Assembly (NCBI GenBank): GCA_001771065.1
Contig: MESQ01000080.1
Coordinates: 1-64,000 of the forward strand
Source: Burkholderiales bacterium RIFOXYD12_FULL_59_19
Lineage (GTDB): Bacteria > Pseudomonadota > Gammaproteobacteria > Burkholderiales > Burkholderiaceae_C
Reading direction: 5' to 3'
DNA: 64,000 bases
The notes under the pieces are model-generated. The model searched no databases. It worked only from the letters and a program-made list of their open reading frames with translations, and had not been told where the DNA came from. A program made the position numbers and the translations under genes. Below are positions 26,706 to 48,146 of this stretch, piece after piece. The first letter of the stretch is position 1, and each line of letters opens with the position of its first letter.

Positions 26706-27920
26706 ATGATTGACCGAAGCCTGCTTTTTGAAGTGCTCACACAACGGCTGACCGAGTCGCGGGCGCTGGCCCTGCTTGGTGCCAGGCAAGTTGGCAAGAC
26801 CACACTGGCGCAGCTGTACGCCTCGCGTCATAACTGCGTTTACTTTGACCTGGAGGACCCGCAGTCACTTGAACATTTGAGCCAGCCCATGGTGACGCTG
26901 GATGCGGCCCTGAGCGCTGGACGCACCGTCGTGATAGATGAGGTGCAGCGGCGGGCAGAACTGTTTCCGGTACTGCGCACACTGATCGACCGGCACGCCC
27001 GCAACAGCCAGTTTTTGTTGTTAGGCAGCGCATCACCGCTGCTGCTGCAGCAGTCTGGCGAGTCACTGGCGGGTCGTCTGGGCCTGTTGTATATGGGTGG
27101 CGTGGCACTTTCGGAGTGGACACACACCAACAGCAGCAGCAGTGCCAAAGGTTTGTCCCCTGTTCACATGAACCAGCTCTGGCTACGCGGCGGATTCCCG
27201 CGGGCGCTGCTGGCGCCCTCTGCCCGAGCTGCCATGCGCTGGTTGCGCGACTACCTGTCACTGGTCATTGAGCGCGACATGCCCCAAATGGGTTTGAACG
27301 TGGCGGCGCTGACCATGCAGCGCTTCTGGCGCCTGCTGGCGCACTACCATGGCCAGACCTGGAACGCGGCTGAGCCGGCACGCAGCCTGGGTGTGAGCGA
27401 GCCGACCGTGCGCAAATACCTGGACTTTTTGGTCGGCCTGCAACTCGTGCGTCAACTGCCACCGTGGCACGAAAATCTGGGCAAACGCCAAGTCAAGGCG
27501 CCCAAAATTTATATCCGCGACAGCGGCTTGTTGCACTATTTGTGGGGCGTGGAAGATGATGACGCGCTCTGGCTTCACCCCAAGAGCGGTGCCAGCTGGG
27601 AAGGCTTTGCCCTGGAGCAGGTGCTGCATGTCGCGCAACCTGATGAAGCCTATTTCTGGGCCACCCATTCAGGTGCCGAACTCGATTTATTGATGTTCAA
27701 GCGGGGGCTGCGCGTGGGGGTGGAGTTCAAGCGCATCGATGCCCCAAAAATCACGCCGTCCATGCTGATCGCCATTCAGGACCTGCACCTCGATGCCCTC
27801 TACGTGGTGTACCCCGGCCAGCGCCGTTATCACTTGCAGCCAAAAAGCGCCGCCATCAGTACCCCCATTGAAGCCATTCCGTTGAACGATTTGGCTACCC
27901 TTCCTGCCGACTGGAACTAA
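26706..27920 (+). CDS. AAA ATPase with DUF4143 domain
   Basis: A 404-residue cytoplasmic protein of the AAA_14/DUF4143 family. The N-terminal ATPase domain has Walker A GARQVGKTTLA at about 26-36 and Walker B TVVIDEVQ at about 77-84. The C-terminal half has the winged-helix part (LGVSEPTVRKYLDFLVGLQLV) and the nuclease-like end (GAELDLLMFKRGLRVGVEFKR). These genes are usually solitary and mobile, with unknown function; possible toxin-antitoxin or DNA-repair roles have been suggested. PepP starts 3 bp after its stop, so read-through into pepP is likely. Confidence 0.88.
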   Translation: MIDRSLLFEVLTQRLTESRALALLGARQVGKTTLAQLYASRHNCVYFDLEDPQSLEHLSQPMVTLDAALSAGRTVVIDEVQRRAELFPVLRTLIDRHARNSQFLLLGSASPLLLQQSGESLAGRLGLLYMGGVALSEWTHTNSSSSAKGLSPVHMNQLWLRGGFPRALLAPSARAAMRWLRDYLSLVIERDMPQMGLNVAALTMQRFWRLLAHYHGQTWNAAEPARSLGVSEPTVRKYLDFLVGLQLVRQLPPWHENLGKRQVKAPKIYIRDSGLLHYLWGVEDDDALWLHPKSGASWEGFALEQVLHVAQPDEAYFWATHSGAELDLLMFKRGLRVGVEFKRIDAPKITPSMLIAIQDLHLDALYVVYPGQRRYHLQPKSAAISTPIEAIPLNDLATLPADWN

Positions 27921-29355: not shown

Positions 29356-30171
29356 ATGCCGCTCAAAAGCAGTTCCGATTCCGCCCGTGGCACCGAAGGC
29401 AAAAACGGTGTCCAGTCCCTTGAAATTGGCATGACGATTCTGCGTGCCATCAGCGGTGGCCACCGTGCCATGATGCTCAAGGACATTGCTGCGGCGGCTG
29501 ACATGCCGGCCAGTAAAGTGCACCGCTATATCGTCAGCCTGGTACGCGCCGGACTGGTGGAGCAAGACCCCATGAGCGCGCGCTACGACCTGGGGCCATT
29601 TGCCCTGAGCCTGGGACTGGTGGCGGTGGAGCGCCTGGACCGGGTCAAAATCGGCCTGCAAGCCATTGCCGAACTGCGCGATGAGGTCAACCAGACCATC
29701 GCGCTGGCGGTCTGGAGCGACAACGGCCCGGTCATCATCCGCTCATTGCGCCCCTACCGCCCCATCACCGTCAACGTGATCACCGGCAGCGCCCTGCAAC
29801 TGCTCACCTCGGCCAGCGGCCGGATTTTTGCGGCCTATTTACCGCGCAGCACCACCAATGCGCTGATTGGGCGTGAACGCGCCACACTGGCCTTGCCGCC
29901 AGCACTGCAAACCGAAGTTGGCATTAATGCCATGCTGGCCCAGGTACGCACTGACAAGCTGTCTGTGGTCAGCGACTACCACCTGGTGCCAGGAGTTACG
30001 GCAGCAGCCGCGCCTGTTTTCAATTTCAAGCACGAAATCACCCTGTCGGTACTGGCCATCGGCGTCAAAAGCATGATCGACCTGACGCCCGACGGCAAAG
30101 TGGTGACCGCCCTGAAACGCTGCGCCCAGAATCTGTCGCTGCGGCTGGGGCATGTCGAGCAGGACACCTGA
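29356..30171 (+). CDS. IclR-family transcriptional regulator
   Basis: A 271-residue regulator with an N-terminal winged helix-turn-helix (about 20-85: GMTILRAISGGHRAMMLKDI, then ADMPASKVHRYIVSLVRAGL). The C-terminal effector domain is about 95-265 (AVWSDNGPVIIRS, LTSASGRIFAAYLP). The family commonly controls aromatic catabolism. It lies immediately upstream of the livH-paa region in the same orientation, making it the best local candidate for the regulator of that locus; no PaaX or PaaR gene was seen. A palindrome in the downstream promoter is a possible binding site. Confidence 0.9.
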   Translation: MPLKSSSDSARGTEGKNGVQSLEIGMTILRAISGGHRAMMLKDIAAAADMPASKVHRYIVSLVRAGLVEQDPMSARYDLGPFALSLGLVAVERLDRVKIGLQAIAELRDEVNQTIALAVWSDNGPVIIRSLRPYRPITVNVITGSALQLLTSASGRIFAAYLPRSTTNALIGRERATLALPPALQTEVGINAMLAQVRTDKLSVVSDYHLVPGVTAAAAPVFNFKHEITLSVLAIGVKSMIDLTPDGKVVTALKRCAQNLSLRLGHVEQDT

Positions 30172-30450: not shown

Positions 30451-30507
30451 ATGTTGACGTGCTCAACCCGTTCCGGGTGTTTTGAATCTGCCGCCAGGAG
30501 CGCCTGA
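30451..30507 (+). CDS. 18-codon leader ORF translationally coupled to livH
   Basis: ATG 30451 is preceded by a good Shine-Dalgarno (ACAGGAG, about 7 nt away) and reads MLTCSTRSGCFESAARSA. The TGA stop shares its A with the livH ATG at 30507 (TGATG). The overlap implies that ribosomes finishing the leader reinitiate on livH. The codons show no obvious amino-acid run for attenuation. Expression is inferred only from the start signal and the overlap. Confidence 0.45.
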   Translation: MLTCSTRSGCFESAARSA

Positions 30508-31382
30508 TGCTGGCCGAATTTCTGCAATTCCTGTTTTCCGGCATCACGGTGGGCGCCACCTACGCGCTCGCCGCGTTGGGTTTCACGCTGATCTACAACG
30601 CCAGCAATGTGATCAACTTTGCGCAGGGCGAATTCATCATGCTCGGCGGCATGCTGGCGGTGTTTTTCACCCAGGGCGGCCTGCCCATGCCGGTCGCGCT
30701 GGCGCTGGCCATTGCGCTGCCGGCACTGGTCGGCGTGGTGGTTGAAAAGCTGGCGATTGAGCCGGTCAAGGGCGCCGAGTCGGTCACGCTGATCATCATC
30801 ACCATTGGCGCTTCGCTGGTCATTCGTGGTCTGGTTCAGGTCTGGCTGGGCAAAGGCACCTTCAGCCTGCCGGCGTTTTCTGGCGATGTACCGCTGCAAA
30901 TTCTGGGTGCCACGTTGATGCCGCAAAGCCTGTGGGTGCTGGGTGTCACGGCCATTGTGGTGGTGGCGCTGTGGTACTTTTTTAACCGCACCTTACACGG
31001 CAAGGCCATGCTGGCCACCTCCTACAACCGGGTCGCGGCCGAGCTGGTCGGCATCAACACAAACTGGGTGCTGTTTTTGAGCTTTGCCATGTCGGCGGCA
31101 CTGGGCGCACTGGGGGGCATTCTGGTGACACCCATCACACTCACCTCGTATGACGTGGGCATCATGCTCGGGCTCAAGGGTTTTGTGGCCGCCGTGGTCG
31201 GTGGCCTGGGTAACGGCCTGGGCGCGGTGGTCGGCGGCTTGCTGGTAGGTATTCTGGAAGCCATGGGCGCGGGCTACATCTCGTCGTCTTACAAGGATGC
31301 GATCCCGTTTGTGCTGATCCTGCTGATCTTGTTCTTCATGCCGCGCGGTCTGTTTGGTGGCAAATCCACGGATCGGGTCTGA
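30507..31382 (+). CDS. livH: Branched-chain amino acid-type ABC transporter permease LivH
   Basis: Inner-membrane permease of 291 residues with about 8 hydrophobic helices and the LivH signatures ALAALGFTLIYNASNVINFAQGE and GLKGFVAAVVGGLGNG. It is first in livH-M-G-F. Given the genes that follow, the likely cargo is an aromatic acid rather than leucine (inference from context). It shows no anomaly and begins two codons before MLAEFLQF-type family starts. Confidence 0.92.
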   Translation: MLAEFLQFLFSGITVGATYALAALGFTLIYNASNVINFAQGEFIMLGGMLAVFFTQGGLPMPVALALAIALPALVGVVVEKLAIEPVKGAESVTLIIITIGASLVIRGLVQVWLGKGTFSLPAFSGDVPLQILGATLMPQSLWVLGVTAIVVVALWYFFNRTLHGKAMLATSYNRVAAELVGINTNWVLFLSFAMSAALGALGGILVTPITLTSYDVGIMLGLKGFVAAVVGGLGNGLGAVVGGLLVGILEAMGAGYISSSYKDAIPFVLILLILFFMPRGLFGGKSTDRV

Positions 31383-31384
31383 GC

Positions 31385-32317
31385 ATGAAAAAGAGTCCTT
31401 TCATTGGCCTGTACATCATCATGGCCGTGTTACTGGTGCTGCCCTTTGTGCTGCCCAACAGCTTTTATGTCGACCTGGCGATCCGCATGGCCATCAACGC
31501 CATCATCGTGCTGGGGCTGAACCTGCTGATTGGTTTTGCCGGCCAGATCAGCCTGGGTCATGCCGGTTTTCTGGGCATCGGGGCCTACGCCACGGCGGCA
31601 CTGCCGAGCCATTTTGGCTGGCACCCGATGCTGGCCTTGCTGGCCGGGGCCGCAGCGGCTGGTTTGCTGGCAGCCATTGTGGCGCGGCCAATTTTCAAGC
31701 TCAAGGGCCATTACCTGGCCATGGCCACCCTGGGCCTGGGCATCATCATCAACATCGTGGTGCGCAACGAAGCGGCCTGGACCGGTGGTCCGGACGGCAT
31801 GCCGGTGCCCGCCATGAGCCTGGCCGGATTCGAGATTTCGGGTGATAAACACTGGTACTGGATCGTTGCCGTGCTGCTGTCGGTCAGTGTCTGGGCCTCC
31901 CTGAACCTGATTGACTCACCCTTTGGCCGGGCGCTGCGTGCGCTGCACGGCAGCGAGGTGGCATCCAAGGTGGTGGGGGTCGACGTGGTGCGTTACAAGG
32001 TAGCCATCTTTGTGTTGTCGGCCGTGTTTGCCAGCATCATGGGCAGCGTCACCGCGCATTACGTGGGTTTTGTCACGCCCAACCTGGCGGACTTCTTCCA
32101 CTCGATTGAGCTGGTCACCATGGTGGTGATCGGCGGCATGGCCTCGGTCTATGGCTCGGTGGTGGGCGCCGTGCTGCTCACGGCCCTGCCGCAGGCGCTG
32201 ACCTCGTTTGAAGGCTGGGAAACCGTGATCTTTGGCGCCATTTTGATGCTGTGCATGATCTTTCTGCCCAAGGGCCTGGTGCCCACCCTGGCCGCCAAAT
32301 TCAGCAGCGGAGAATGA
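31385..32317 (+). CDS. livM: Branched-chain amino acid-type ABC transporter permease LivM
   Basis: Second permease, 310 residues. Signatures are LGLNLLIGFAGQISLGHAGFLGIGAY at about 43-68, FKLKGHYLAMATLGLG and VTMVVIGGMASVYGSVVGA. It starts 2 bp after livH and its stop overlaps a possible ATG for livG, indicating a tight operon. It forms the membrane channel with LivH. Confidence 0.92.
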   Translation: MKKSPFIGLYIIMAVLLVLPFVLPNSFYVDLAIRMAINAIIVLGLNLLIGFAGQISLGHAGFLGIGAYATAALPSHFGWHPMLALLAGAAAAGLLAAIVARPIFKLKGHYLAMATLGLGIIINIVVRNEAAWTGGPDGMPVPAMSLAGFEISGDKHWYWIVAVLLSVSVWASLNLIDSPFGRALRALHGSEVASKVVGVDVVRYKVAIFVLSAVFASIMGSVTAHYVGFVTPNLADFFHSIELVTMVVIGGMASVYGSVVGAVLLTALPQALTSFEGWETVIFGAILMLCMIFLPKGLVPTLAAKFSSGE

Positions 32318-32319
32318 AC

Positions 32320-33081
32320 ATGGCCCTGCTTGAAGTCAAAGACCTGTCGATCCACTTTGGTGGTGTCAAGGCGGTGCAAAACGTCAGTTTTACCATTGAC
32401 GCCGGTATTGTCTACGCGGTAATCGGCCCCAACGGCGCCGGTAAAACCACGCTGTTCAACCTGATCACCGGGGTCTACACGCCGACCACCGGCACGATTT
32501 TGCTCGACGGTGAATCCATCGGTGGCAAATCGCCGGACGCGCTGGCCCGCCGGGGCGTGGCGCGCACGTTCCAGAACCTGCAAATCTGCATGAACATGGA
32601 CGCCATTGAAAACGTCATGGTCGGGGCGCATTTGCGGCTGGACCGCAACCTGCTCAAGGCCGCCCTGCGCTGGCCCGTACTCAAACGCCGCGACCGCGAA
32701 TTGCGTGGTGAGGCGGCTGAACTGATGCGCTTTGTCGGCTTGCAAGACTACATCAACACACGCGCCGACAGCATGCCCTACGGCGCGCTCAAACGGCTGG
32801 AAATTGCCCGCGCCCTGGCCATGAAGCCGCGCCTGATTTTTCTGGACGAACCCGCTGCCGGTCTCAACCCCAAGGAAACCATCGAGGTGGATGCACTGGT
32901 GCGCAAGGTGGCCGATTCGGGCGTCACGGTGGTGCTGGTCGAGCACGACATGAAGATGGTGATGAACCTCTCGGACCGCATTCTGGTGCTGGACTACGGC
33001 AGGAAGCTGACCGAGGGCACAGGCTTGGAGGTGCGCAGCAACCCCGATGTGATTGCCGCTTATCTGGGCGCGCACGCCTGA
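32320..33081 (+). CDS. livG: Branched-chain amino acid-type ABC transporter ATPase LivG
   Basis: A 253-residue ATPase with Walker A GPNGAGKTT near residue 36-44, the long LivG insert before the signature helix, and Walker B LIFLDEPAAGLNPKE. The canonical LSGGQ signature reads MPYGALKRLEIARAL, a change seen in some LivG proteins. Start 32320 is preferred to the ATG at 32314, because GGAG at 32309 is then 7 nt away rather than 1. It pairs with the LivF-type ATPase downstream. Confidence 0.92.
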   Translation: MALLEVKDLSIHFGGVKAVQNVSFTIDAGIVYAVIGPNGAGKTTLFNLITGVYTPTTGTILLDGESIGGKSPDALARRGVARTFQNLQICMNMDAIENVMVGAHLRLDRNLLKAALRWPVLKRRDRELRGEAAELMRFVGLQDYINTRADSMPYGALKRLEIARALAMKPRLIFLDEPAAGLNPKETIEVDALVRKVADSGVTVVLVEHDMKMVMNLSDRILVLDYGRKLTEGTGLEVRSNPDVIAAYLGAHA

Positions 33082-33095
33082 ACCCAAGGGACACC

Positions 33096-34412
33096 ATGGA
33101 CGCACTCAACATCATCAGCCAGGACCACAGCAACATGTGGCGGCTGGCCATCACCATCGACCACATCGCCACCGACATTGAACAAGGCGCCCCCGTCGAG
33201 TCGGCATTTTTTAATGCAGCCTTTGACTACATCGACCAGTTTGTCGACCGCTTTCACCACCCGAAAGAAGACGACTATCTGTTTCGCTTGCTGCGCCTGC
33301 GCAGTACCGAAGCCGCAGACATTCTGGACCAGCTGGAGCTGGAACACCGAGAAGGTCCGGACACGCTTGCCGCCTTACGCGCCAGGGTCATGGCCGCAGC
33401 CGCCGGAGAGTTGTCGGGCGCCCAGATCGCCACCGAACTGCGCAACTACACGGCCATCCTGAAGAACCACATCCGGACCGAAGAAAAATCGGTTCTGCCG
33501 CTGGCACGCAACAGTTTGATTGCTGCGGACTGGGCTGAAATCAACCAGGCGTTTCTGGACAACAGCGACCCTGTTTTTGGCGAAAAGGCGCAGGCAGAGT
33601 TTCGCCAGCTCTACCACCGTGTGGTCAGTCTGGCGCCTGAGTCGGTGGGCCTGGGCGGCCACAGCGAAGGCACGCTGCAACCGCTGCCGCAGCGCACCCA
33701 AAACGAGGTGCAACTGCGCGTCGAAGGCATGGAAAGCTGTTACGGCCGCATCAAGGCACTCAAAGGCATCAGCCTGGAAGTGCGCCGGGGCGAAACCGTG
33801 GCCCTGGTCGGCGCCAACGGGGCGGGCAAGACCACGTTTTTACGCACCCTGTCGGGCGTGCAACCCATGAGCGCGGGCAGCATCCATTTCAAGGGCGAAG
33901 ACATCAGCAAGCTGCGATCCGACAAACGCATGCGACGCGGCATTTGCCAAAGCCCCGAAGGCCGCCAGGTGTTCGGCCCGCTGTCGATTGAAGACAACCT
34001 GCGGCTGGGCGCCTACACCCAGCCACGCGCGCAGGTGGAAGGCGACATGGAAAAGATTTTCACCATGTTCCCGATCCTGAAAGAAAAACGCGCGCTGCCG
34101 GCGGGCACCCTGTCAGGCGGCCAGCAGCAAATGCTGGCGATTGGCCGCGCGCTGATGGGCCGCCCCAGCCTGCTGTTACTCGACGAGCCATCCATGGGTC
34201 TGGCGCCGCTGCTGGTGGAAGAAGTCTTTAACGTCATCAAGATGCTCAAGAGCCAGGGCATGACGATTTTGCTGGTCGAACAAAACGCCTTTGCTGCGCT
34301 GGCCATTGCCGACCGCGGCTACGTGTTGGAGACCGGCACCGTCACCCTGACCGGCACCGGCCAGGAACTCATCAGCAACGAACAGGTGCGCGCCGCGTAC
34401 CTCGGAATGTAA
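33096..34412 (+). CDS. Hemerythrin-LivF fusion: N-terminal HHE domain joined to an ABC ATPase
   Basis: One uninterrupted 438-residue ORF. Residues 1-180 form a hemerythrin-like four-helix domain with the full di-iron ligand pattern: His11, His54-x3-Glu58, His84 and His125-x3-Glu129. A linker (about 185-203) leads to a complete LivF ATPase: Walker A GANGAGKTT at 239-247, then LSGGQQQMLAIGRAL and LLLLDEPSMGL. LivF proteins are normally about 235 residues without this extension. The gene follows livG by 14 bp, so it supplies the second ATPase of the importer. An oxygen- or redox-responsive control of transport is an attractive but untested inference. Confidence 0.9.
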   Translation: MDALNIISQDHSNMWRLAITIDHIATDIEQGAPVESAFFNAAFDYIDQFVDRFHHPKEDDYLFRLLRLRSTEAADILDQLELEHREGPDTLAALRARVMAAAAGELSGAQIATELRNYTAILKNHIRTEEKSVLPLARNSLIAADWAEINQAFLDNSDPVFGEKAQAEFRQLYHRVVSLAPESVGLGGHSEGTLQPLPQRTQNEVQLRVEGMESCYGRIKALKGISLEVRRGETVALVGANGAGKTTFLRTLSGVQPMSAGSIHFKGEDISKLRSDKRMRRGICQSPEGRQVFGPLSIEDNLRLGAYTQPRAQVEGDMEKIFTMFPILKEKRALPAGTLSGGQQQMLAIGRALMGRPSLLLLDEPSMGLAPLLVEEVFNVIKMLKSQGMTILLVEQNAFAALAIADRGYVLETGTVTLTGTGQELISNEQVRAAYLGM

Positions 34413-34433: not shown

Positions 34434-35399
34434 ATGATCAAAAAATTTGCATCCCAGGCCGACCTCGAGGTCAAGAAGACCACCTTTGCCCAGCTCTCCG
34501 AGCACTGTTGGGCCTACACCGCCGAGGGCGACCCCAACACCGGCGTCATCATTGGTGACGACGCGGTGCTGATTTGTGACGCGCTGGCGACGCCGGTGAT
34601 GGCGCAAAGCCTGATTGCCGAAATCCGAAAGGTGTCTGACAGACCCATCAAATACGTGGTGCTGTCGCACTACCACGCGGTGCGTGTGTTGGGCGCCTCA
34701 GGTTACAAAGATGCGGGCATGCAGGAAATCATTGCCAGCCAGGGCACTTACGAGATGATTGTCGAGCGCGGCGCGCAAGACATGCAGTCTGAGTACGAAC
34801 GTTTTCCGCGCCTGTTTGACGCCTTTGACTCCATCCCCGGCCTGACCTGGCCCACCATGGTGTTCAAGGACGAGATGACGCTGTGGATGGGCAAGCTCGA
34901 AGTCAAGATCATGCATCTGGGCCCCGGCCACACCAAGGGTGACACTATTGTCTGGGTGCCCTCGGAAAAAGTGCTGTTTTCGGGCGACCTGATGGAAGCC
35001 GATGCCGCTTGTTACACCGGCGATGCCCAACTGGAAGAATGGCCCGCCACGCTGGACGCGCTGGTGGCCCTGAAGCCCGAAAAAATCGTGCCCGGCCGTG
35101 GCCCGGCGCTTGACACGCCTGAGCGTGTGGCCGCCGGCCTGGCTTACACCCGTGATTTCGTCAGCACCTTGCTGAGCTCGGCCAAAGAAGCGGTAGCCCA
35201 GGGCATGAACCTGAACCAGGCCATGGCGCATTGCCGCAAGGCGATGGACCCCAGGTTTGGCCAGGTCTTTATTTACGAACACTGCCTGCCGTTTGACGTG
35301 ACCCGCGCCGTGGACGAGGCCAGCGGCATCAAACACCCACGCATCTGGACGGCTGAGCGCGACAAGGAAATGTGGCACGGCCTGCAAGCGGCTAAATAA
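34434..35399 (+). CDS. MBL-fold protein with a variant metal motif
   Basis: A 321-residue metallo-beta-lactamase-fold protein. The usual HxHxDH zinc motif reads HYHAVR at residues 79-84, so the Asp and the last His are replaced by Val and Arg. The later ligands (LGPGHTKGDT, FSGDLMEAD) are kept. It may bind a single metal or have lost hydrolase activity. It lies between the hemerythrin-LivF gene and the FAD hydroxylase gene with short gaps, so a role in the aromatic pathway is likely. A thioester- or lactone-hydrolysing function is only a guess. Confidence 0.82.
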   Translation: MIKKFASQADLEVKKTTFAQLSEHCWAYTAEGDPNTGVIIGDDAVLICDALATPVMAQSLIAEIRKVSDRPIKYVVLSHYHAVRVLGASGYKDAGMQEIIASQGTYEMIVERGAQDMQSEYERFPRLFDAFDSIPGLTWPTMVFKDEMTLWMGKLEVKIMHLGPGHTKGDTIVWVPSEKVLFSGDLMEADAACYTGDAQLEEWPATLDALVALKPEKIVPGRGPALDTPERVAAGLAYTRDFVSTLLSSAKEAVAQGMNLNQAMAHCRKAMDPRFGQVFIYEHCLPFDVTRAVDEASGIKHPRIWTAERDKEMWHGLQAAK

Positions 35400-35445
35400 G
35401 TCACACCAACATCGGCACAAAAAAATTTAACACCAGAGACAAGCC

Positions 35446-37119
35446 ATGTTGAGCACTTACCAGTATCCAAAATTTGACTACATCCGCCCGCCAGAGCACT
35501 CTGGTGCTGACAAAAAGCGCTACCCCGTGGTGGTGGTGGGCGCCGGCCCGGTGGGGCTGGCGGCGGCCATTGAGCTGGCGCAGTCCGGCGTGCCGGTGGT
35601 GCTGCTGGACGACGACGACACCGTGTCGGTGGGTTCGCGCGGCGTCTGTTACGCCAAGCGCACGCTTGAAGTGCTGGACCGCCTGGGTCTGGGTGAGCCT
35701 TGTATGGACAAGGGGGTGAGCTGGAACGTGGGGCGCACATTTTTCCGCGAGCAAGAGGTGTACAACTTCAACCTGTTGCCGCAGCCTGACCACAAGCGTC
35801 CCGGCATGATCAACCTGCAGCAGTATTACCTGGAAGAGTTCGAGGTGAAGCGCGCCCAGGAGTTGCCTAATCTGGACCTGCGCTTCAAAAACAAGGTGGT
35901 GTCCGTGACACCTCAAGGTGATGGCGCCACGCTGCAAGTGGAAACCCCGGACGGCATTTACTCTCTGGAAACCGACTGGCTGGTGGTGGCCGACGGCGCC
36001 CGCAGCGGTATTCGCCGCCTGATGAATCTGGACATTGAAGGCAAGATTTTCAAGGACCGTTTCCTGATTGCCGACGTGGTCATGAAGGCCGATTTTCCGC
36101 ACGAACGCTGGTTCTGGTTTGACCCGCCGTTTCATCCGGGACAGTCGGTGCTGTTGCACCGCCAGGCCGACAACGTGTACCGCATCGACTTCCAGTTGGG
36201 CTGGGACGCCGACCCCGAAGAAGAGAAGAAGCCCGAAAAAGTCATTCAACGCATCAAGGCCATGCTCGGTGATGACCGTGAGTTTGAGCTGGAATGGGTC
36301 AGCGTCTACACCTTCCAGTGCCGCCGCATGAACGCCTTTACCCACGGCCATGTGCTGTTTGTGGGTGACGCGGCACACCAGGTGTCGCCATTTGGCGCGC
36401 GCGGTGCCAACTCCGGCATTCAGGACACCGACAACCTGTGCTGGAAACTCAAATTGGTGGTGGAAGGCAAGGCCCCGCCCGAATTGCTCGACACCTATTC
36501 AGAAGAACGGGTCTTTGCCGCCGAGGAAAACCTGCTCAACTCGACCCGCTCCACCGACTTCATCACGCCCAAAAGCAAAACCTCGCTGACGTTTCGCAAC
36601 GCCGTGCTGAGCCTGGCGCGCAACCATGCCTTTGCGCGTGGGCTGGTCAATTCTGGCCGTTTGTCGGTGCCGAGTCACCTCACCGAGTCACGCCTGAACA
36701 CACCCGATGACGGCAGTTTTGCCGGCGACATGGTGCCCGGCGCGCCGATGGACGATGCGCCGATGCTGGTGGACGGCCAGGAAGCCTGGCTGCTGGATCA
36801 GGTGGGCAATCGCTTTGCGGTGCTGCTATTTGTCAATGACACCGCAAGCGTTGATGCCAGGCTGCTAGCCAGTTGCCAGGTCGTGGCGGGCGGCCCGCTG
36901 GCACCCGAGGTGGTGCTGGTCGCGACCAAAGTTGGCGCCGCAACGCCAGGCCTGCGCGTACTCGAAGACCGTGCCGACCGTTTTGCCGAGCGTTATGACG
37001 CGCAGCACGGCAGTTGCTACCTGGTGCGACCCGACCAGCATGTGGCCGCGCGCTGGCGCAGCTTTGACGCGGCGCAAGTCGGCACCGCCCTGGCCCGCGC
37101 CACCTGCAATCTGTCCTAA
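35446..37119 (+). CDS. FAD-dependent aromatic hydroxylase (MhpA/PheA-like monooxygenase)
   Basis: Group A flavoprotein monooxygenase of 557 residues that would hydroxylate an aromatic acid using NAD(P)H and O2. It has the FAD Rossmann motif GAGPVGLAAAIELAQ at 32-46, the DG motif (VVADGARSGIRR) and the second FAD motif GDAAHQVSPFGARGANSGIQ from residue 307. The C-terminal thioredoxin-like tail matches 3-(3-hydroxyphenyl)propionate hydroxylases. The substrate is not determined; the downstream VOC and FAH genes suggest the product is ring-cleaved next. Confidence 0.88.
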   Translation: MLSTYQYPKFDYIRPPEHSGADKKRYPVVVVGAGPVGLAAAIELAQSGVPVVLLDDDDTVSVGSRGVCYAKRTLEVLDRLGLGEPCMDKGVSWNVGRTFFREQEVYNFNLLPQPDHKRPGMINLQQYYLEEFEVKRAQELPNLDLRFKNKVVSVTPQGDGATLQVETPDGIYSLETDWLVVADGARSGIRRLMNLDIEGKIFKDRFLIADVVMKADFPHERWFWFDPPFHPGQSVLLHRQADNVYRIDFQLGWDADPEEEKKPEKVIQRIKAMLGDDREFELEWVSVYTFQCRRMNAFTHGHVLFVGDAAHQVSPFGARGANSGIQDTDNLCWKLKLVVEGKAPPELLDTYSEERVFAAEENLLNSTRSTDFITPKSKTSLTFRNAVLSLARNHAFARGLVNSGRLSVPSHLTESRLNTPDDGSFAGDMVPGAPMDDAPMLVDGQEAWLLDQVGNRFAVLLFVNDTASVDARLLASCQVVAGGPLAPEVVLVATKVGAATPGLRVLEDRADRFAERYDAQHGSCYLVRPDQHVAARWRSFDAAQVGTALARATCNLS

Positions 37120-37423: not shown

Positions 37424-37963
37424 ATGCAAATCCAGAAAATCCACCATGTGGCCTACCGCTGCAAAGATGCCAAACAAACCGTGGAGTGGTACGGCAAGTA
37501 CCTCAACATGGCCTTCATCCTGGCGATTGCCGAGAACGAGGTGCCTTCCACCCACGAGCCCGATCCCTACATGCACGTCTTTCTGGACGCGGGCGGCGGC
37601 AATGTGCTGGCGTTTTTTGAGCTGCCCACCCAACCCGAGATGAGCCGCGACCTGAACACGCCGACCTGGACACAGCATCTGGCGATGCAGGTGGCCACGG
37701 TCGACGAACTGTTGGAAACCAAGGCCAAGCTGGAAGCCGATGGCATCGAAGTGGTGGGGCCCACCGACCACACCATCTTCAAGTCGATCTACTTCTTTGA
37801 CCCCAGCGGCCACCGGCTGGAACTGGCCGCCAACACCGGCACACCCAAGATGGCCAAGATGCTCGACGAGACCAAGTGGGACATGCTCAACGAATGGGCC
37901 ATCACCAAAAAAGCCCCGCAGCACGCCCGCTGGATGCACGACGGCTCTTATGCCGGGGAGTAA
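37424..37963 (+). CDS. VOC-family protein, possible extradiol-type ring-cleavage dioxygenase
   Basis: A 179-residue vicinal-oxygen-chelate protein with two beta-alpha-beta-beta-beta modules. The metal triad is visible as His8 (KIHHVAYRC), His85 (TQHLAMQV) and Glu133 (GHRLELAAN), the 2-His-1-Glu set of VOC dioxygenases. Other VOC enzymes (glyoxalases, isomerases) use similar ligands, so dioxygenase activity is inferred from its place between an FAD hydroxylase and an FAH-type hydrolase. The next gene starts 6 bp after its stop. Confidence 0.8.
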   Translation: MQIQKIHHVAYRCKDAKQTVEWYGKYLNMAFILAIAENEVPSTHEPDPYMHVFLDAGGGNVLAFFELPTQPEMSRDLNTPTWTQHLAMQVATVDELLETKAKLEADGIEVVGPTDHTIFKSIYFFDPSGHRLELAANTGTPKMAKMLDETKWDMLNEWAITKKAPQHARWMHDGSYAGE

Positions 37964-37969
37964 ACACGC

Positions 37970-39001
37970 ATGAAGCTTGCCACACTCAAACAAGGCGGGC
38001 GCGACGGCACGCTGGTGGTGGTCAACCGCGCCTTGACCCACTGCCGCGCCGTACCCGCCATTGCCCGCACCCTGCAAGCTGCGCTGGACGACTGGGAGGC
38101 TTGCGAGCCGCAGTTGCGCCAGGTGTATGAAGCCCTCAACAGCGGCGCCTTCAGCAACCCGGATGTGTTTGACCCGGCGCTGTGCCATTCACCGCTGCCA
38201 CGCGCCTACCAGTGGGCCGACGGCTCGGCCTATGTCAACCATGTGGAGCTGGTGCGCCGCGCCCGCGGTGCCGAGTTGCCGCCGTCATTCTGGACCGACC
38301 CACTGATGTACCAGGGCGGCTCGGACTCGTTTGTCGGTCCGCGTGACCCCGTTTATGCCCTGTCCGAAGACTGGGGCATTGACCTAGAAGCCGAGGTGGC
38401 GGTGGTCACTGGCGACGTCAGCATGGGCTGCAGCGTGGCAGACGCCGCCAAGTCGGTGCGCCTGCTGATGCTGGTCAACGACGTCTCGTTGCGCAACCTG
38501 ATCCCGGCGGAGCTGGCCAAGGGTTTTGGCTTCTTCCAGTCCAAACCGGCCAGCGCCTTCAGCCCGGTGGCGGTCACGCCCGACGAGTTGGGTGCCGACT
38601 GGCAAGATACCCGGGTACACCGGCCTTTGACCGTGCACCTGAATGGCGCCTTGTTTGGCCAGCCCGATGCGGGCACCGACATGGTCTTCAACTTTGCCCA
38701 GCTCATTGCCCACGCGGCGAAAACACGGGAACTGGCAGCGGGTTCGGTCATTGGCTCGGGCACGGTGTCCAACAAACAGGGCGACCTGCAAGGCTCGTCA
38801 ATTGCCAATGGTGGTGTCGGCTACTGCTGCATTGCCGAGGTGCGTATGTACGAGACGATCGCGTCCGGCCAAGCGCAAACCAGCTACATGAAGTTTGGCG
38901 ACCGCGTGCAGATCGATATGACCGACCGCTTTGGCGCCTCGATTTTTGGCGCCATTGCGCAGACCGTCACCCGTTATCCAGGCGCTGCAGCGCCAAATTA
39001 A
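37970..39001 (+). CDS. Fumarylacetoacetate hydrolase family protein
   Basis: A 343-residue protein of the FAH fold that cleaves a C-C bond in a ring-fission product. The metal-binding segment DWGIDLEAEVAVVTGDVS and NDVSLRNLI, followed by FGFFQSKPASAFSP, are clear. The tail has GSVIGSGTVSN and YMKFGDRVQIDM. It forms a hydroxylase-dioxygenase-hydrolase set with the two genes upstream. The exact substrate could be a maleyl- or fumaryl-pyruvate/acetoacetate type compound and is not determined. Confidence 0.88.
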   Translation: MKLATLKQGGRDGTLVVVNRALTHCRAVPAIARTLQAALDDWEACEPQLRQVYEALNSGAFSNPDVFDPALCHSPLPRAYQWADGSAYVNHVELVRRARGAELPPSFWTDPLMYQGGSDSFVGPRDPVYALSEDWGIDLEAEVAVVTGDVSMGCSVADAAKSVRLLMLVNDVSLRNLIPAELAKGFGFFQSKPASAFSPVAVTPDELGADWQDTRVHRPLTVHLNGALFGQPDAGTDMVFNFAQLIAHAAKTRELAAGSVIGSGTVSNKQGDLQGSSIANGGVGYCCIAEVRMYETIASGQAQTSYMKFGDRVQIDMTDRFGASIFGAIAQTVTRYPGAAAPN

Positions 39002-39040
39002 TTGGACTCTGACCCCCATTATTTTTTTCAAGAAAATCCC

Positions 39041-40708
39041 ATGAACCATCCCCTGTTTGAAAAACACCGCGCCAAGCTTGACGCCGCGCTCAACGCCATC
39101 CACAGCCGTGACTACTGGGCCGCGTACAACGAGATGCCTAGCCCCAAGAGCTATGGCGAAACCGCCCCCGCAGACGGCAAACTCGCGTTTGAGGCCCATC
39201 TGGGTCAGAAGTTTGACCTGCAGCAGCCCGGCACCACGGCCTGGCTAGCGCCAGAGGTGTCGCCGTTTGGCATTGACCTGAATGTGCAATACCCGGTATG
39301 CGACATCGAGGCGCTGATTGGCGCTGGCCAGCTCGCCATGGTCGGCTGGCAGGCAGTCGGGGTGGAGGGCCGCACCGGCCTGTGCATCGACATGCTGGAT
39401 CGCCTGAACGCCCAGAGTTTCGAGATCGCCCACGCCGTCATGATGACCACCGGCCAGGGCTGGATGATGGCGTTCCAGGCGGGCAGCCCGCACGCCCAAG
39501 ACCGTGGCCTGGAGGCGGTGACCTACGCTTACCGCGAGCAAAGCTTTGTGCCTGCCGAGGCCACCTGGGAAAAGCCGCAAGGCAAGAATCCGCCGCTGGT
39601 CATGAAAAAGCATTTTCAGATCGTCGGCCGCGGTGTGGCCGTGGTCGTGGGTTGCGCCACTTTTCCGACCTGGAACACCTATCCCGGCCTGTTTGCCGCG
39701 CTGGCGACCGGCAACCCGGTCATCATCAAACCGCATGACCACGCGGTGCTGCCCGCCGCCATCACGGTGCGCACCCTGCGCGCGGTGTTGGCCGAGCACG
39801 GCATGGACCCCAATCTGGTCAGCCTGTGTGTGCCGTCCAGGCCCGAAACCACGCAGGCGCTGGTGACCCATGCGGCGGTGAAATCGGTCGACTTCACCGG
39901 CGGCAACGTGTTTGGCCAGTGGCTCATCGACCACTGCCGCCAGGCCCAGGTCTATGCCGAGCTGGCCGGTGTGAACAACATCGTGATCGACTCGACCGAC
40001 GCCTACAAACCCATGTTGCGCAACCTGGCCTTCACCCTGTCGCTGTACTCGGGCCAGATGTGCACCACCTCGCAAGCGCTGTTGGTGCCCGCGGGCGGCA
40101 TTGACACCGAAGACGGCCACAAGACCTATGACGAGGTGTGCGCCGACCTGGCCCGCGCCATCGAGGGCTTTCTGGCCAAGCCCGAGGTGGCTTTTGCCGT
40201 GCTGGGCGCGGTGCAATCCCAAGCCACGCTGGCGCGTATCACGCTGGCCGAAAGTGGCACTTTGGGCCGGGTGCTGCTGGCGTCCAAAAAACTCGACAAC
40301 CCCGAGTTCCCCAAGGCCGAAGTACGCACCCCGGTGCTGCTGGCCTGCGACGCGGCTGATGAAGCGGCCTACATGGAAGAGCGTTTTGGCCCCATCACGT
40401 TTGTCGTCAAGGTGGCGGACACCGCAGCCGCCATCGCGCTGTCGGAGCGCATCATCAACAGCCACGGTGCGCTCACGGCCGGTCTCTACTCGACCCGTGC
40501 CGACGTCATCGACGCCATGACGGCCACCACCTGGCGTTCCAAAGTGGCCCTGTCGATCAACCTGACCGGTGCAGTGTTTGTGAACCAGTCTGCTGCGTTC
40601 TCCGACTACCACGGCACCGGCGGCAACCCGGCGGCCAATGCCTCGTATTCGGACTCGGCCTTTGTCGCCAACCGCTTCCGGGTGGTGCAGCGCCGTTATC
40701 ACGTTTGA
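39041..40708 (+). CDS. paaN: PaaN: aldehyde dehydrogenase of the phenylacetate pathway
   Basis: NADP-type aldehyde dehydrogenase oxidising the semialdehyde formed by hydrolytic opening of oxepin-CoA. The 555-residue protein has the catalytic Cys in LYSGQMCTTSQALLV and the Glu in YAELAGVNN, as in the PaaN family. Unlike E. coli PaaZ it has no C-terminal MaoC hydratase domain, so the ring-opening hydratase must be a separate protein. Start 39041 (MNHPLFEKH) fits the family; the longer ORF overlaps only untranslated sequence. paaG follows 9 bp later. Confidence 0.9.
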   Translation: MNHPLFEKHRAKLDAALNAIHSRDYWAAYNEMPSPKSYGETAPADGKLAFEAHLGQKFDLQQPGTTAWLAPEVSPFGIDLNVQYPVCDIEALIGAGQLAMVGWQAVGVEGRTGLCIDMLDRLNAQSFEIAHAVMMTTGQGWMMAFQAGSPHAQDRGLEAVTYAYREQSFVPAEATWEKPQGKNPPLVMKKHFQIVGRGVAVVVGCATFPTWNTYPGLFAALATGNPVIIKPHDHAVLPAAITVRTLRAVLAEHGMDPNLVSLCVPSRPETTQALVTHAAVKSVDFTGGNVFGQWLIDHCRQAQVYAELAGVNNIVIDSTDAYKPMLRNLAFTLSLYSGQMCTTSQALLVPAGGIDTEDGHKTYDEVCADLARAIEGFLAKPEVAFAVLGAVQSQATLARITLAESGTLGRVLLASKKLDNPEFPKAEVRTPVLLACDAADEAAYMEERFGPITFVVKVADTAAAIALSERIINSHGALTAGLYSTRADVIDAMTATTWRSKVALSINLTGAVFVNQSAAFSDYHGTGGNPAANASYSDSAFVANRFRVVQRRYHV

Positions 40709-40717
40709 GGCTTTACC

Positions 40718-41509
40718 ATGACCTACCAGAACATTCGTTTTGAAGCCCGGGACGGCATTGCCCGCCTGACGCTCAATCGCCCGGAAAAGCTCAACAGCTT
40801 CACCGGCGCCATGCACGCCGAATTGCGCGCCGCGCTCGATGCTGTGCAGCACGACAAAAGCGTCCGCGTGCTGGTCATCACTGGTGCCGGGCGTGGCTTT
40901 TGTGCCGGGCAAGACCTGGCCGACCCCGACATGGCCATGGGTGTGCGTGGGCCCGACATTGGTAACGTGGTGGAGCAAAACTACAAACCGCTGATTCTGG
41001 CCTTGCAAAACCTGCGCGTGCCGACCGTTGCACAAGTCAACGGCATTGCCGCCGGGGCCGGGGCCAGCCTGGCACTGGCCTGTGATCTGGTGATTGCCGG
41101 CAAGTCCGCAGCCTTCTTGCAGGCCTTCAGCAAGATCGGCCTGATTCCCGACACCGGTGGTACCTGGTTTTTGCCACAACGCGTGGGCATGGCACGGGCC
41201 ATGGGGCTGGCGCTGCTGGCAGAAAAACTGCCCGCCGAAAAAGCGGCTGAATGGGGCCTGATCTGGCAAGCCGTGGACGATGCGGATCTGACGTCCACGG
41301 TGAACCAGCTCGCCGCCCAGTTGGCTGCCATGCCGACCAAGGCGCTGGTGCGCACCCGCGCCGCCATGCACGCCGCACCCAACCACACGCTGGAACAGCA
41401 GCTCAACATGGAAGGCGGCTTTATGCGCGAGCTGGGCTGGAGCCCGGACTTTGCCGAAGGTGTGGCCGCCTTCATGGAAAAGCGCGCGCCCAAATTCACC
41501 GGAAACTAA
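40718..41509 (+). CDS. paaG: PaaG: 1,2-epoxyphenylacetyl-CoA isomerase
   Basis: Crotonase-fold enzyme converting ring-1,2-epoxyphenylacetyl-CoA to oxepin-CoA and shifting double bonds later in the pathway. The 263-residue length is standard. The oxyanion-hole loop GRGFCAGQDLADPDM and the active-site Asp in LIPDTGGTWFLP are the PaaG pattern. It lies between paaN and paaH. Confidence 0.93.
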   Translation: MTYQNIRFEARDGIARLTLNRPEKLNSFTGAMHAELRAALDAVQHDKSVRVLVITGAGRGFCAGQDLADPDMAMGVRGPDIGNVVEQNYKPLILALQNLRVPTVAQVNGIAAGAGASLALACDLVIAGKSAAFLQAFSKIGLIPDTGGTWFLPQRVGMARAMGLALLAEKLPAEKAAEWGLIWQAVDDADLTSTVNQLAAQLAAMPTKALVRTRAAMHAAPNHTLEQQLNMEGGFMRELGWSPDFAEGVAAFMEKRAPKFTGN

Positions 41510-41516
41510 CAACCCC

Positions 41517-43040
41517 ATGACACAAGCGCTCTCCAAACACGCAGTGGTCGCCGTCATCGGTGCCGGTGCCATGGGCGCCGGTATTGCCCAGGTGGCCGCA
41601 TTTGGCGGGCACCCGGTCAAGCTGCTCGACAACCGCCCCGGCGCAGCCGCCCAGGCGATTGAGGGCATTCGTGCCCAGTTTGAAAAAATGGCGGCCAAGG
41701 GCAAAATCAGCCCCGAGACTGCCACCGCTGCGGGCGCTCGCTTGCAGGCGGTCGCGCAACTGGTGGACCTGTTTGATGCGGCCCTGGTGGTGGAAGCCAT
41801 TGTGGAAAATCTGCAGGTCAAGCAGACGCTGTTCAAGGCGCTGGAAACCGTGGTGTCCAAGGGCTGCATTCTGGCCAGCAACACCTCGTCGATTTCCATC
41901 ACCGCCATTGGTGCAGCGCTCACGGGCCCGCAACGCCTGGCGGGCTTGCACTTCTTTAATCCGGCACCCTTGATGGCGCTGGTGGAGGTGGTGTCGGGTC
42001 TGGCCACTGCGCCGGAAGTGGCCAGCACCTTGTATGACACCGCGCTGGCCTGGGGCAAGACCCCGGTGCACGCCAGGTCCACCCCCGGTTTTATCGTCAA
42101 CCGGGTCGCGCGCCCGTATTACGCCGAAGCCTTGCGTGTGCTGACCGAGGGTGGTGCCGATTGCGCCACGCTTGATGCCTGCTGCCGCGAGGCGGGGGCC
42201 TTTCGCATGGGACCGTTCGAGCTGATGGACATGATTGGCCATGACGTCAACTTTGCAGTCACCAGCTCGGTGTGGCGCGCGTTTTTTAACGATCCGCGCT
42301 TTTTGCCCTCACTGATTCAGCAAGACCTGGTGGACGCCGGTTTTCTGGGTAAAAAATCTAGCCGGGGTTTTTACAACTACCAGGAAGGCGCCAGCAAACC
42401 GCAGCCCGTTACCGTGCCAGCGCTGGCCCGGCCCCATGACATCGTGCTGTACGGTCAGTCTGCCGCAGCCCGGGCCCTGGCCCTGCGCCTGCAAGCCAAT
42501 GGCGTTGGTTTCACCCGGACGCAAGCCATGGGCACCACCCTGGCCACTGCGGGGGCGGCCTCCCTGCGCATCACCGATGGCCGCACCGCCACCCGCTGTG
42601 CCTTTGACAGCCAAACGCCCAACACCGTGCTGGTGGATTTGGCACTGGACTACCAAACAGCCACCCGGCTGGCCGTGAGTGTGGCCGCCCAGTGCGACGA
42701 CACGGCCGCCAACTGCGCCATCGGCTTGCTGCAGGCGGCGGGTTTTGCCGTGTCGCAGCTGCAGGACATTCCCGGCCTGATCGTCATGCGCACCGTGGCC
42801 ATGCTGGCCAATGAGGCCGCGGATGCCGTCAACCAGGGCGTCTGTGACGCCGCCGCTGTCGACACCGCGATGCGCCTGGGCGTCAATTACCCCTGCGGTC
42901 CGCTGGCTTGGGCCAACAGCATTGGCCTGGCGCAGGTCAGTACTGTGCTGGGTCATCTGGCGCAAACCTATGGCGAAGACCGCTACCGCACCTCGCCCTT
43001 GATCCAACACCACGTTTTTGCTGCAAAGGACTTTTCATGA
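41517..43040 (+). CDS. paaH: PaaH: 3-hydroxyadipyl-CoA dehydrogenase
   Basis: NAD-dependent dehydrogenase of the final beta-oxidation steps. The 507-residue protein has VIGAGAMGAGIAQVAA at the start, HFFNPAPLMALVEVV and two C-terminal 3HCDH domains (GPFELMDMIGHDVN; NYPCGPLAWANSIG), typical of PaaH. Its stop overlaps the paaI start (ATGA), so translation is coupled. The start at 41517 is 7 bp after paaG. Confidence 0.93.
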   Translation: MTQALSKHAVVAVIGAGAMGAGIAQVAAFGGHPVKLLDNRPGAAAQAIEGIRAQFEKMAAKGKISPETATAAGARLQAVAQLVDLFDAALVVEAIVENLQVKQTLFKALETVVSKGCILASNTSSISITAIGAALTGPQRLAGLHFFNPAPLMALVEVVSGLATAPEVASTLYDTALAWGKTPVHARSTPGFIVNRVARPYYAEALRVLTEGGADCATLDACCREAGAFRMGPFELMDMIGHDVNFAVTSSVWRAFFNDPRFLPSLIQQDLVDAGFLGKKSSRGFYNYQEGASKPQPVTVPALARPHDIVLYGQSAAARALALRLQANGVGFTRTQAMGTTLATAGAASLRITDGRTATRCAFDSQTPNTVLVDLALDYQTATRLAVSVAAQCDDTAANCAIGLLQAAGFAVSQLQDIPGLIVMRTVAMLANEAADAVNQGVCDAAAVDTAMRLGVNYPCGPLAWANSIGLAQVSTVLGHLAQTYGEDRYRTSPLIQHHVFAAKDFS

Positions 43041-43583: not shown

Positions 43584-44909
43584 ATGACCGTCAAACAACC
43601 CCAACCCGGCGAACTTGAAGCCATTGAAACCGCCAGCCGCGACGAAATCTCGGCGCTGCAACTGGAACGCCTCAAATGGTCTTTACAGCACGCCTATGAC
43701 AACGTGCCGTTTCATAAAAAGGCCTTTGACGACAAAGGCGTCCACCCCAGCGATCTGAAAACCCTGGCCGACCTGGCCAAGTTTCCATTCATGACCAAGA
43801 CCGCGCTACGCGACCAGTACCCCTTTGGCCTGTTTGCCGTACCCAAGGAAAAAGTGGCGCGACTGCACGCATCAAGCGGCACCACTGGCAAGTCGATCGT
43901 GGTTGGCTACACGCTCAAAGACATCGACAACTGGGCCAATCTGGTGGCGCGCTCGATCCGCGCCGCCGGTGGCCGTGCCGGCGACATGCTGCACAACGCC
44001 TACGGCTACGGCATGTTCACCGGTGGCCTGGGCGCACACTACGGCGCCGAGCGCCTGGGTTGCACCGTGGTGCCGATGTCGGGTGGGCAGACCGAAAAGC
44101 AGGTGCAGCAAATTGTTGATTTCCAGCCGCAAATCATCATGGTCACGCCCAGCTATTCGCTGGTGATTGCCGAAGAATTCGAGCGTCTGGGCATCACGCC
44201 GGATCAAATCTCGCTCAAGATCGGCATCTTTGGTGCCGAGCCCTGGGGCGAAGGCATGCGCAAAGAGATCGAACGCAAACTGGGCATTGACGCCATCGAT
44301 ATCTACGGCTTGACCGAAGTCATGGGCCCCGGCGTGGCCTGTGAATGCATCGAATCGAAAGACGGCCCGGTAATCTGGGAAGACCACTTTTACCCCGAGA
44401 TCATCGACCCCGAAACCGGCGAGGTGCTACCGGACGGCTCTGACGGCGAACTGGTGTTCACCTCGCTGACCAAAGAAGCTTTTCCTGTGATTCGTTACCG
44501 CACCCGCGACCTGACGCGACTGCTGCCACCCACCTCGCGCGCGTTCCGGCGCATGGGCAAGATCACCGGCCGCTCGGACGACATGCTGATCGTGCGCGGT
44601 GTCAATGTGTTCCCGAGCCAGATCGAAGAGCAGATCCTGCGCGACAAGCGGCTCTCGGGCAACTACCAGATTTTGCTAAGCCGCGATGGCCATCTGGACA
44701 ACGTCGAGGTGCGCTGCGAACTACAACGCGAATTCTCCGGCAAGCTGTCGGCGGCGGACGTGGCCGTCATCAGCAAAGAGTTGCAACACCACATCAAGAC
44801 CATCGTCGGCATCTCGACCCGGGTCACCGTGCTGGAGTTCGAGGCGATTCCGCGCACCCAAACCGGCAAGGCGCGCCGCCTGATTGATGAGCGGCCCAAG
44901 CAACTCTAA
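43584..44909 (+). CDS. paaK: PaaK: phenylacetate-CoA ligase
   Basis: ATP-dependent ligase making phenylacetyl-CoA, the entry step of the pathway. The 441-residue protein has the AMP-binding loop HASSGTTGKSIVVGYT, then YGLTEVMGPGVACEC, TGRSDDMLIVRGVNVFPSQIE and the C-terminal Lys in RTQTGKARRL. GGAGACCC precedes the start. Its gene is 10 bp from paaJ. Confidence 0.95.
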   Translation: MTVKQPQPGELEAIETASRDEISALQLERLKWSLQHAYDNVPFHKKAFDDKGVHPSDLKTLADLAKFPFMTKTALRDQYPFGLFAVPKEKVARLHASSGTTGKSIVVGYTLKDIDNWANLVARSIRAAGGRAGDMLHNAYGYGMFTGGLGAHYGAERLGCTVVPMSGGQTEKQVQQIVDFQPQIIMVTPSYSLVIAEEFERLGITPDQISLKIGIFGAEPWGEGMRKEIERKLGIDAIDIYGLTEVMGPGVACECIESKDGPVIWEDHFYPEIIDPETGEVLPDGSDGELVFTSLTKEAFPVIRYRTRDLTRLLPPTSRAFRRMGKITGRSDDMLIVRGVNVFPSQIEEQILRDKRLSGNYQILLSRDGHLDNVEVRCELQREFSGKLSAADVAVISKELQHHIKTIVGISTRVTVLEFEAIPRTQTGKARRLIDERPKQL

Positions 44910-44919
44910 GGAAGCCACC

Positions 44920-48114: not shown

Positions 48115-48146
48115 GTTTATTTTTTAACCCACAGGAGTCACAGCTT

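Follow-up and report, generated by a model that had tools for sequence, protein, structure and literature searches.

One open reading frame of the window, by which we mean the whole 64,000-nucleotide stretch of DNA analysed here, joins a hemerythrin (HHE) domain to a full LivF-type ABC ATPase. The gene lies at 33096..34412 on the + strand, as do all the window genes below, and runs from an ATG start through 438 residues with no internal stop, exactly as the first-pass annotation had claimed. That annotation had named a frameshift or an assembly artefact as what would undo the claim. Either can be ruled out for practical purposes, as the same fusion is found across named strains and independent loci: it is intact in 77 of the 80 loci kept from a GTDB contig scan with the HHE alignment (the best 80 of 161 relatives), and it is present in 9 of the 299 genomes of a family search. 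The HHE domain looks like a selected accessory of the ATPase, as suggested by its conservation, its linkage to genes of aerobic phenylacetate degradation (paa), its losses, and the purifying selection seen in a genus whose metal ligands have changed.

The fusion gene and its relatives

The HHE part (33096..33665, residues 1–190) was delimited from Pfam PF01814, predicted structures and alignments. It passes into a linker (33636..33707, residues 181–204) whose pLDDT is below 50 at residues 185–202, and the LivF-type ATPase part follows (33711..34409, residues 206–438), as located by Pfam, NCBIfam and Foldseek. Pfam places Hemerythrin (PF01814) on residues 3–137 (E 1.4e-15, 58.3 bits against a cut-off of 25.3) and ABC_tran (PF00005) on residues 222–366 (E 6e-31). 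The match over the curated cut-off and a predicted four-helix bundle identify the N-terminal part as a hemerythrin HHE domain; the bundle is followed by two short helices and then by DPxFG ... APxxxGLG motifs, which are in part common to stand-alone HHE genes. For the ATPase half, the top NCBIfam model is LivF (PRK11614; residues 204–437, E 6.3e-80) and the top Foldseek match is T. maritima 1ji0, at 52% identity, while the operon supplies two permeases, LivG and, 12 kb downstream, a periplasmic binding protein. Since the fusion scores 268 bits on PRK11614, below the equivalog cut-off of 441, we class it as LivF-type and not as a branched-chain amino acid equivalog. With the LivF of branched-chain amino acid importers (E. 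coli LivF; 1ji0) it shares the full ATPase (residues 205–438), the livH-livM-livG-livF operon and a nearby Peripla_BP_6 protein; it differs in about 200 extra N-terminal residues carrying the hemerythrin domain and in its linkage to paa genes. The view that LivF proteins normally have no such extension agrees with the own genome, where, among 109 matches, no row but that of the fusion spans both parts of the query.

Fourteen bases lie between the livG stop (33081) and the start codon of the fusion, and 21 bases separate its own stop from the next gene start, so a single transcript is likely. Two other descriptions of the protein were considered. Iron-sulphur repair proteins of the RIC/YtfE kind are marked by a ScdA_N domain preceding the HHE domain, and Pfam (E 0.001) returns only Hemerythrin, ABC_tran and AAA_21 for the fusion, with no ScdA_N. 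Translation of a free, full-length LivF from the internal ATG at residue 212 is unlikely from a reading of the sequence, because the conserved ATPase residues L207 and V209 precede that start.

In the 77 intact GTDB loci the HHE part, the Walker A motif and the ABC signature stand in one frame; the other three are cut or broken near contig ends. Since so many of the kept relatives share the architecture, the fusion is not an artefact. Beyond the family search, full-length fusions were found in 8 of 349 genomes of an order search, 4 of 369 of a class search and 4 of 398 of a phylum search, all of these overlapping and including the own genome. At the thresholds used, matches to the LivF part only numbered 2 (family), 14 (order), 6 (class) and 8 (phylum), of which 7, 3 and 8 of the last three sets, respectively, were placed. 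The database search for HHE–LivF architectures with mapping of their neighbours, which had been proposed as a check, has therefore returned a conserved fusion with paa genes around it. The 101 fused rows used below (80 GTDB loci and 21 from other genomes) include the three cut or broken loci and five repeats; with the window, they hold 97 distinct sequences, three of them cut or broken.

The GTDB loci include strains of Dechloromonas agitata, Azonexus hydrophilus, Zoogloea ramigera, Brachymonas denitrificans and Malikia granosa. The genera in the titles of the best 80 are Rhodoferax, Polaromonas, Malikia, Brachymonas, Giesbergeria, Dechloromonas, Azonexus and Zoogloea, all of the Betaproteobacteria; the remaining titles give higher ranks only, one of them Gammaproteobacteria. 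More distant full-length fusions, at 47–58% identity, occur in genome G800, in G1193, G1199 and G1081, and in G367, G434 and G470, the last three belonging to one genus. The domain is retained across several families of the class. Among plasmid HHE relatives (28 records hold one), a LivF fusion is annotated in none of the seven regions read. One metagenome bin holds two different HHE–LivF fusion genes (L056 and L058, CAIYYA contigs 211 and 156), representing either a second paralogue or a mixed bin.

Metal ligands and predicted structure

All six ligands named in the first-pass annotation (His11, His54, Glu58, His84, His125 and Glu129) are present at those positions, giving the HHE pattern H, HxxxE, H, HxxxE. 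Together with the ABC signature LSGGQ they are invariant in a nine-row alignment, and the full set is intact in 98 of the 101 fused rows, over which H11, H54, H125 and E129 are invariant. The GTDB scan patterns selected in part for H11, H54 and E58, but not for H84, H125 or E129. The structure alignment comprised the window and 73 of the 80 loci (430–450 aa), and one earlier ligand count covered 74 loci and the window. The three exceptions (loci L159–L161, corresponding to G367, G434 and G470) carry Thr in place of E58, Tyr in place of H84 and a His at residue 88. Given His 88, the changed site in this genus may be a remodelled metal site.

The motif of O2-carrier hemerythrins, as given in PMC9388753, is H-HxxxE-HxxxH-HxxxxD. 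At residue 88, where this motif has the second His of the third helix, the window protein has Pro, and residue 130 is Glu, not Asp; a His at residue 88 occurs in 4 of 102 rows. The protein is not a canonical O2-carrier hemerythrin by this motif, and with the second His absent, O2 binding by the fused domain is not to be assumed.

AlphaFold predicted the HHE part alone with a mean pLDDT of 89.9 and a pTM of 0.86, as four long and two short helices. The model of the whole fusion (pTM 0.57) has an ABC fold for the ATPase half, and the low confidence of both the linker and the overall arrangement allows no docking position of HHE on LivF to be claimed. The nearest solved folds for the HHE part are 2p0n (NMB1532; probability 0.99, TM 0.61/0.71, with a weak E of 0.61) and 3cax (PF0695; probability 1.00, TM 0.62/0.36, with a weak E of 0.028). 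A sequence search of the PDB matched 2p0n, with an E of 0.009, and, at 0.18, a designed coiled coil. The titles of 2p0n and 3cax describe proteins of unknown function or uncharacterised proteins and mention no ATPase fusion.

Genomic context and history of the fusion

The transporter genes livH (30507..31382), livM (31385..32317) and livG (32251..33081), all assigned by Pfam and NCBIfam, precede the fusion. LivG is the partner ATPase of the fused LivF; its GTG start at 32251 overlaps livM, and the true start may lie further downstream. Upstream of the permeases are an IclR-family regulator (29356..30171; closest to the NCBIfam model PcaR/PcaU/PobR, below cut-off) and an AAA_14/DUF4143 ATPase (26706..27920). 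Four genes lie between the fusion and paaN: a metallo-beta-lactamase-fold hydrolase (34434..35399; closest to SoxH-related models, below cut-off), an FAD-dependent oxidoreductase of the FAD_binding_3 family (35446..37119; PRK08132 over cut-off), a glyoxalase/dioxygenase-superfamily protein (37424..37963) and a fumarylacetoacetate hydrolase (FAH) family protein (37970..39001; Pfam).

The aromatic-degradation set described by the first-pass annotation, which had livG directly before the fusion as found here, can be named as aerobic phenylacetate degradation from its paa genes. It comprises paaN (39002..40708; TIGR02288 over cut-off), paaG (40718..41509; TIGR02280 over cut-off), a paaH-like 3-hydroxyacyl-CoA dehydrogenase (41451..43040; Pfam only), the phenylacetate-CoA ligase gene paaK (43584..44909; TIGR02155 over cut-off), a paaJ/pcaF thiolase (44884..46125; TIGR02430 over cut-off) and an enoyl-CoA hydratase family protein (47329..48114). 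These are followed by the epoxidase subunit gene paaA (48099..49214; TIGR02156 over cut-off), paaB (49211..49513; 100 aa, assigned by eye and from its location, with ends that overlap the stop of paaA and the start of paaC), paaC (49513..50301; TIGR02158 over cut-off), paaD (50307..50903; TIGR02159 over cut-off), paaE (50910..52013; TIGR02160 just below cut-off) and paaY (52038..52679; TIGR02287 just below cut-off). The window thus holds paaABCDE, paaG, paaK, paaN and the thiolase, with PaaA, C, D and E of the O2-using epoxidase recognised by family models. The first ring attack of the phenylacetate pathway uses O2, and the earlier description of an O2-dependent aromatic pathway stands. Behind the set is a gene (55097..57916) whose 939-aa product ends in a CHAT (caspase-like) domain.

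A periplasmic substrate-binding protein of the Peripla_BP_6 family (46153..47298) is encoded inside the paa set. Its relatives, at 55–75% identity, adjoin livH in most unfused and some fused operons fetched, and on this gene order it is likely the partner of the transporter. The metallohydrolase and the FAD oxidoreductase (34434–37119) also accompany the transporter, each as a cluster found in 11 of the 80 GTDB loci, and both genes are present at the unfused G747 locus, which has no paa match in 15 kb. The substrate could therefore be a hydroxylated aromatic acid.

To map the paa linkage, we ran tblastn with the paa proteins of the window and one PaaX (E 1e-30, 40% identity). At least one paa-type gene was found in 68 of the 80 fused GTDB loci (the best 80 of 161 relatives); when only the 54 loci of at least 12 kb are counted, 52 have a paa-type gene and 47 a core gene (one of N, K, A, C, E, X). 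Paa-type genes also accompany 17 of the 21 fused loci from other genomes, some of which are short pieces, and 12 of 20 unfused relatives. The only match in seven own-genome contrast loci, which surround other HHE genes and include two livF-hhe cases, was to a thiolase, which is not paa-specific.

The HHE domain is kept by selection, as its low dN/dS indicates: 0.07–0.23 in pairwise comparisons of the window with nine relatives and 0.04–0.16 in eight other pairs, making 17 pairs overall. The LivF part is lower still, at 0 to 0.10 in 15 usable pairs (L114/L087 and L087/L089 were ignored as offset artefacts). The two pairs tested in the ligand-changed genus gave HHE values of 0.04 and 0.07, so the domain is retained there for a reason that is perhaps independent of the usual metal site.

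For the history of the fusion, a quick IQ-TREE phylogeny was built from joined LivH, LivM, LivG and LivF (66 rows, 1109 columns). It took in 24 of the 80 GTDB loci; of the 45 fused rows gathered, 44 entered the tree and one, on a short contig, was lost. All 44 fused rows and six unfused ones (G138, G092, G777, G739, G747 and G489) fall in one 50-row branch (SH-aLRT 99), which excludes the two outgroup rows and the 14 remaining unfused rows. Seven changes suffice on this tree, for example one gain and six losses, and the fused rows as a sole, loss-free clade are rejected (AU test, p 0.001). The trees support a single fusion, after which the HHE domain was lost about six times. Several independent fusions are less likely, since the HHE tree groups the 18 fused rows included in it (of 101) in a single branch (SH-aLRT 96). 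Both the count and the sequence of these events are approximate, as the trees are quick ones with program-flagged long branches (the outgroup, G747 and others). In G777, which has the same genus code as the fused G849, livF comes straight after livG and has a short new start; G138, G092, G739 and G747 have no HHE match between livG and livF. G489 has a 50-residue low-complexity extension on LivF, with no HHE. It is the tree neighbour of L159–L161, and the extension is perhaps a linker remnant. Because the operon is kept through about six apparent losses in the clade, the transporter appears workable without the domain.

Related HHE domains also occur as separate genes. The own genome has 16 hemerythrin places, for all of which the neighbouring frames were listed, with Pfam run on the neighbours at five (the window and contigs C57, C89, C97 and C43). 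At C57:72570-74683 and C89:5048-7271 the order is livG-livF-hhe as separate genes. Genes for a Cupin_2 protein, an FAA hydrolase and a Rieske oxygenase lie near the former, and a LigB dioxygenase gene lies about 4 kb from the latter. A separate HHE gene directly behind livGF is found again in G837 (contig C141) and in Azospirillum oryzae, where the plasmid order is 3-hydroxybenzoate 6-monooxygenase, maiA, binding protein, two permeases, two ATPases and a hemerythrin gene. The separate genes of C57, C89 and A. oryzae resemble the window gene in their related domain, C-terminal GLG ending, and livGF and oxygenase neighbours; there, however, HHE is a gene of its own after livF, whereas here it is fused in front and has its own branch of the HHE tree. 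The stand-alone genes of C57, C89 and C15 end in an APxPxGLG motif, the same motif at which the fused protein enters its linker; the fusion therefore seems to have placed a complete hhe gene ahead of livF. The fused branch does not include the four livF-adjacent stand-alone HHE genes, which suggests that the coupling of HHE and livF arose more than once; adjacency takes four changes on the HHE tree (midpoint-rooted for drawing), of which well-supported branches force only two.

A stand-alone search listed 39 places, from which 30 loci were taken; five of these proved fused and the other 25 (L220–L244) were viewed. With livF adjacent in 2 of the 25, the idea of HHE as a general transporter partner is narrowed to a recurring minority pattern. 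At L234 an ABC ATPase gene lies about 560 bases from the stand-alone HHE gene. A universal-stress-protein-like sequence stands beside HHE or in frame with it in 10 of the 25. In-frame examples are C81:20747-21298 (-) of the own genome, read by eye, and L142 5533-6558 on a plasmid of Azoarcus KH32C, where the universal-stress-protein-type sequence is annotated; by their sequences, these two would represent another fusion type of the same HHE family. At C97:6522-8301 (+) and C43:43946-45735 (-) of the own genome, HHE lies directly behind the TRAP gene dctM and beside gentisate-type genes, those at C97 encoding a Cupin_2 and an FAD_binding_3 protein. The C97 HHE aligns without a C-terminal extension. 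HHE may thus also partner a second, unrelated transporter type.

Possible roles of the HHE domain on LivF

In PMC9388753, hemerythrin fusions to MCP, diguanylate cyclase and HD-GYP proteins are described as O2 or redox sensors, and hemerythrin sensors are reported on chemotaxis receptors, c-di-GMP enzymes and one P-type ATPase family. DcrH, Bhr-DGC, Bhr-HD-GYP and the P1B-5 ATPases described there resemble the window protein in carrying a hemerythrin-like domain on a signalling or transport protein. The output here differs in being an ABC importer ATPase, and the window motif, H-HxxxE-H-HxxxE(E), has no second His in its third helix.

The first-pass annotation had suggested that oxygen, NO or iron status gates uptake of an aromatic acid. 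The best single reading of an HHE domain on LivF, to which we give a probability of about 0.4, is that of an O2 or redox gate, as far as sequence comparison can suggest. The fusion protein would be the LivF subunit, the motor, of an ABC importer linked to the paa genes, whose substrate is most likely phenylacetate or a closely related aryl-acetate. In this transporter class LivG pairs with LivF as a heterodimer, so each importer would carry one HHE domain, riding in the cytoplasm on a flexible linker and holding a non-heme iron centre, probably di-iron. The oxygenation or redox state of this centre would shift the position or contacts of the domain and thereby raise or lower the ATPase activity of LivF. 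Import, and the spending of ATP and CoA on the acid, would then proceed only when O2 is available to the PaaABC(D)E epoxidase.

Such a gate is favoured by the near-complete retention of the ligands, the low dN/dS of the HHE part, the paa linkage and the separate hhe genes behind livGF, and it would be in line, by analogy, with the characterised sensor fusions described in PMC9388753. Against it stand the unmatched O2-carrier motif, about six losses with the operon kept, the ligand-changed genus that remains under selection, the predicted structure, in which HHE has no confident docking, and the location of most stand-alone HHE genes away from livF. The losses and the ligand-changed genus count in particular against the metal site being essential everywhere. 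Among the genomes compared for respiratory genes, long NosZ matches occur in 12 of 22 fused genomes and in 1 of 6 unfused ones from the clade (4 of 22 and 1 of 6 over the model cut-off), with none in the own genome, and the cbb3 oxidase gene ccoN is present in all 28. Neither gene distinguishes the two groups convincingly, and these counts give no clear sign of denitrification, NO or a low-O2 lifestyle as the driver.

Three other roles were weighed against a gate. The domain could serve local protection or buffering, binding or removing O2, peroxide or NO, or holding iron, near the membrane and the Paa enzymes while leaving the ATPase uncontrolled. PMC6449761 proposes a protective or oxygen-storing/scavenging role for separate HHE genes in benzoate clusters (COG3945 in their assignment), and the universal-stress-protein-like sequences at ten of the 25 viewed stand-alone loci, as well as a ligand set of the six-residue HHE kind and not the O2-carrier kind, point the same way. 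Yet one domain per transporter offers little scavenging capacity, and a free protein would serve equally, whereas the tether to the motor subunit is kept across most of the clade; we regard protection as a close rival to the gate, with perhaps one chance in four of being right. Slightly less probable, though likewise a close rival, is a metal-independent adaptor, a bundle that docks a partner (for example PaaK, a Paa enzyme or an inhibitor) or steadies LivG/LivF, with iron tuning or stabilising it. Purifying selection that persists where E58 and H84 have changed (one genus, three genomes) would fit an adaptor, as would the flexible linker of the model and the strong linkage with paaK and other paa genes. 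But a pure adaptor would not need six ligands that are intact in nearly all fused rows, no partner has emerged from the analysis, and His 88 in the changed genus allows for a remodelled metal site. Finally, the domain could be a functionless passenger of an accidental fusion that LivF tolerates, a view which its apparent losses and its faster evolution than that of LivF would fit; given its low dN/dS, near-invariant ligands and retention across several families of the class, we consider this very improbable.

A broader form of the O2 or redox gate, in which a class of ABC importers has uptake gated by a fused, iron-containing hemerythrin-family domain, with a recurrent partnership and one metal-altered lineage, is put forward only tentatively, the odds being somewhat against it. 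If it is true, HHE and LivF would have been paired as separate genes on several occasions and fused on one, with a version of changed or absent metal site arising in one lineage.

The mostly open-access full texts searched, as far as they were available, contain no description of an HHE–LivF fusion, although databases may list the architecture uncommented. None appears in the accessible portions of PMC6449761, PMC9388753, PMC9765128, PMC2907700 and PMC4919030, a supplementary architecture figure aside. PMC6449761 reports COG3945 hemerythrin genes in benzoate clusters of Betaproteobacteria, some beside a benzoate ABC transporter, and calls their role 'not clear'. The fusion gives a handle on the question raised there of why HHE genes occupy aromatic-acid clusters together with an uptake transporter, and related species with and without the domain, as well as one genus with a changed metal site, provide natural controls. 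If the domain is indeed an O2 or redox gate, import of the acid would follow, at the post-translational level, the supply of O2 for the first ring-attacking enzyme, and hemerythrin sensing would extend to the direct control of nutrient uptake, on the motor of an ABC importer.
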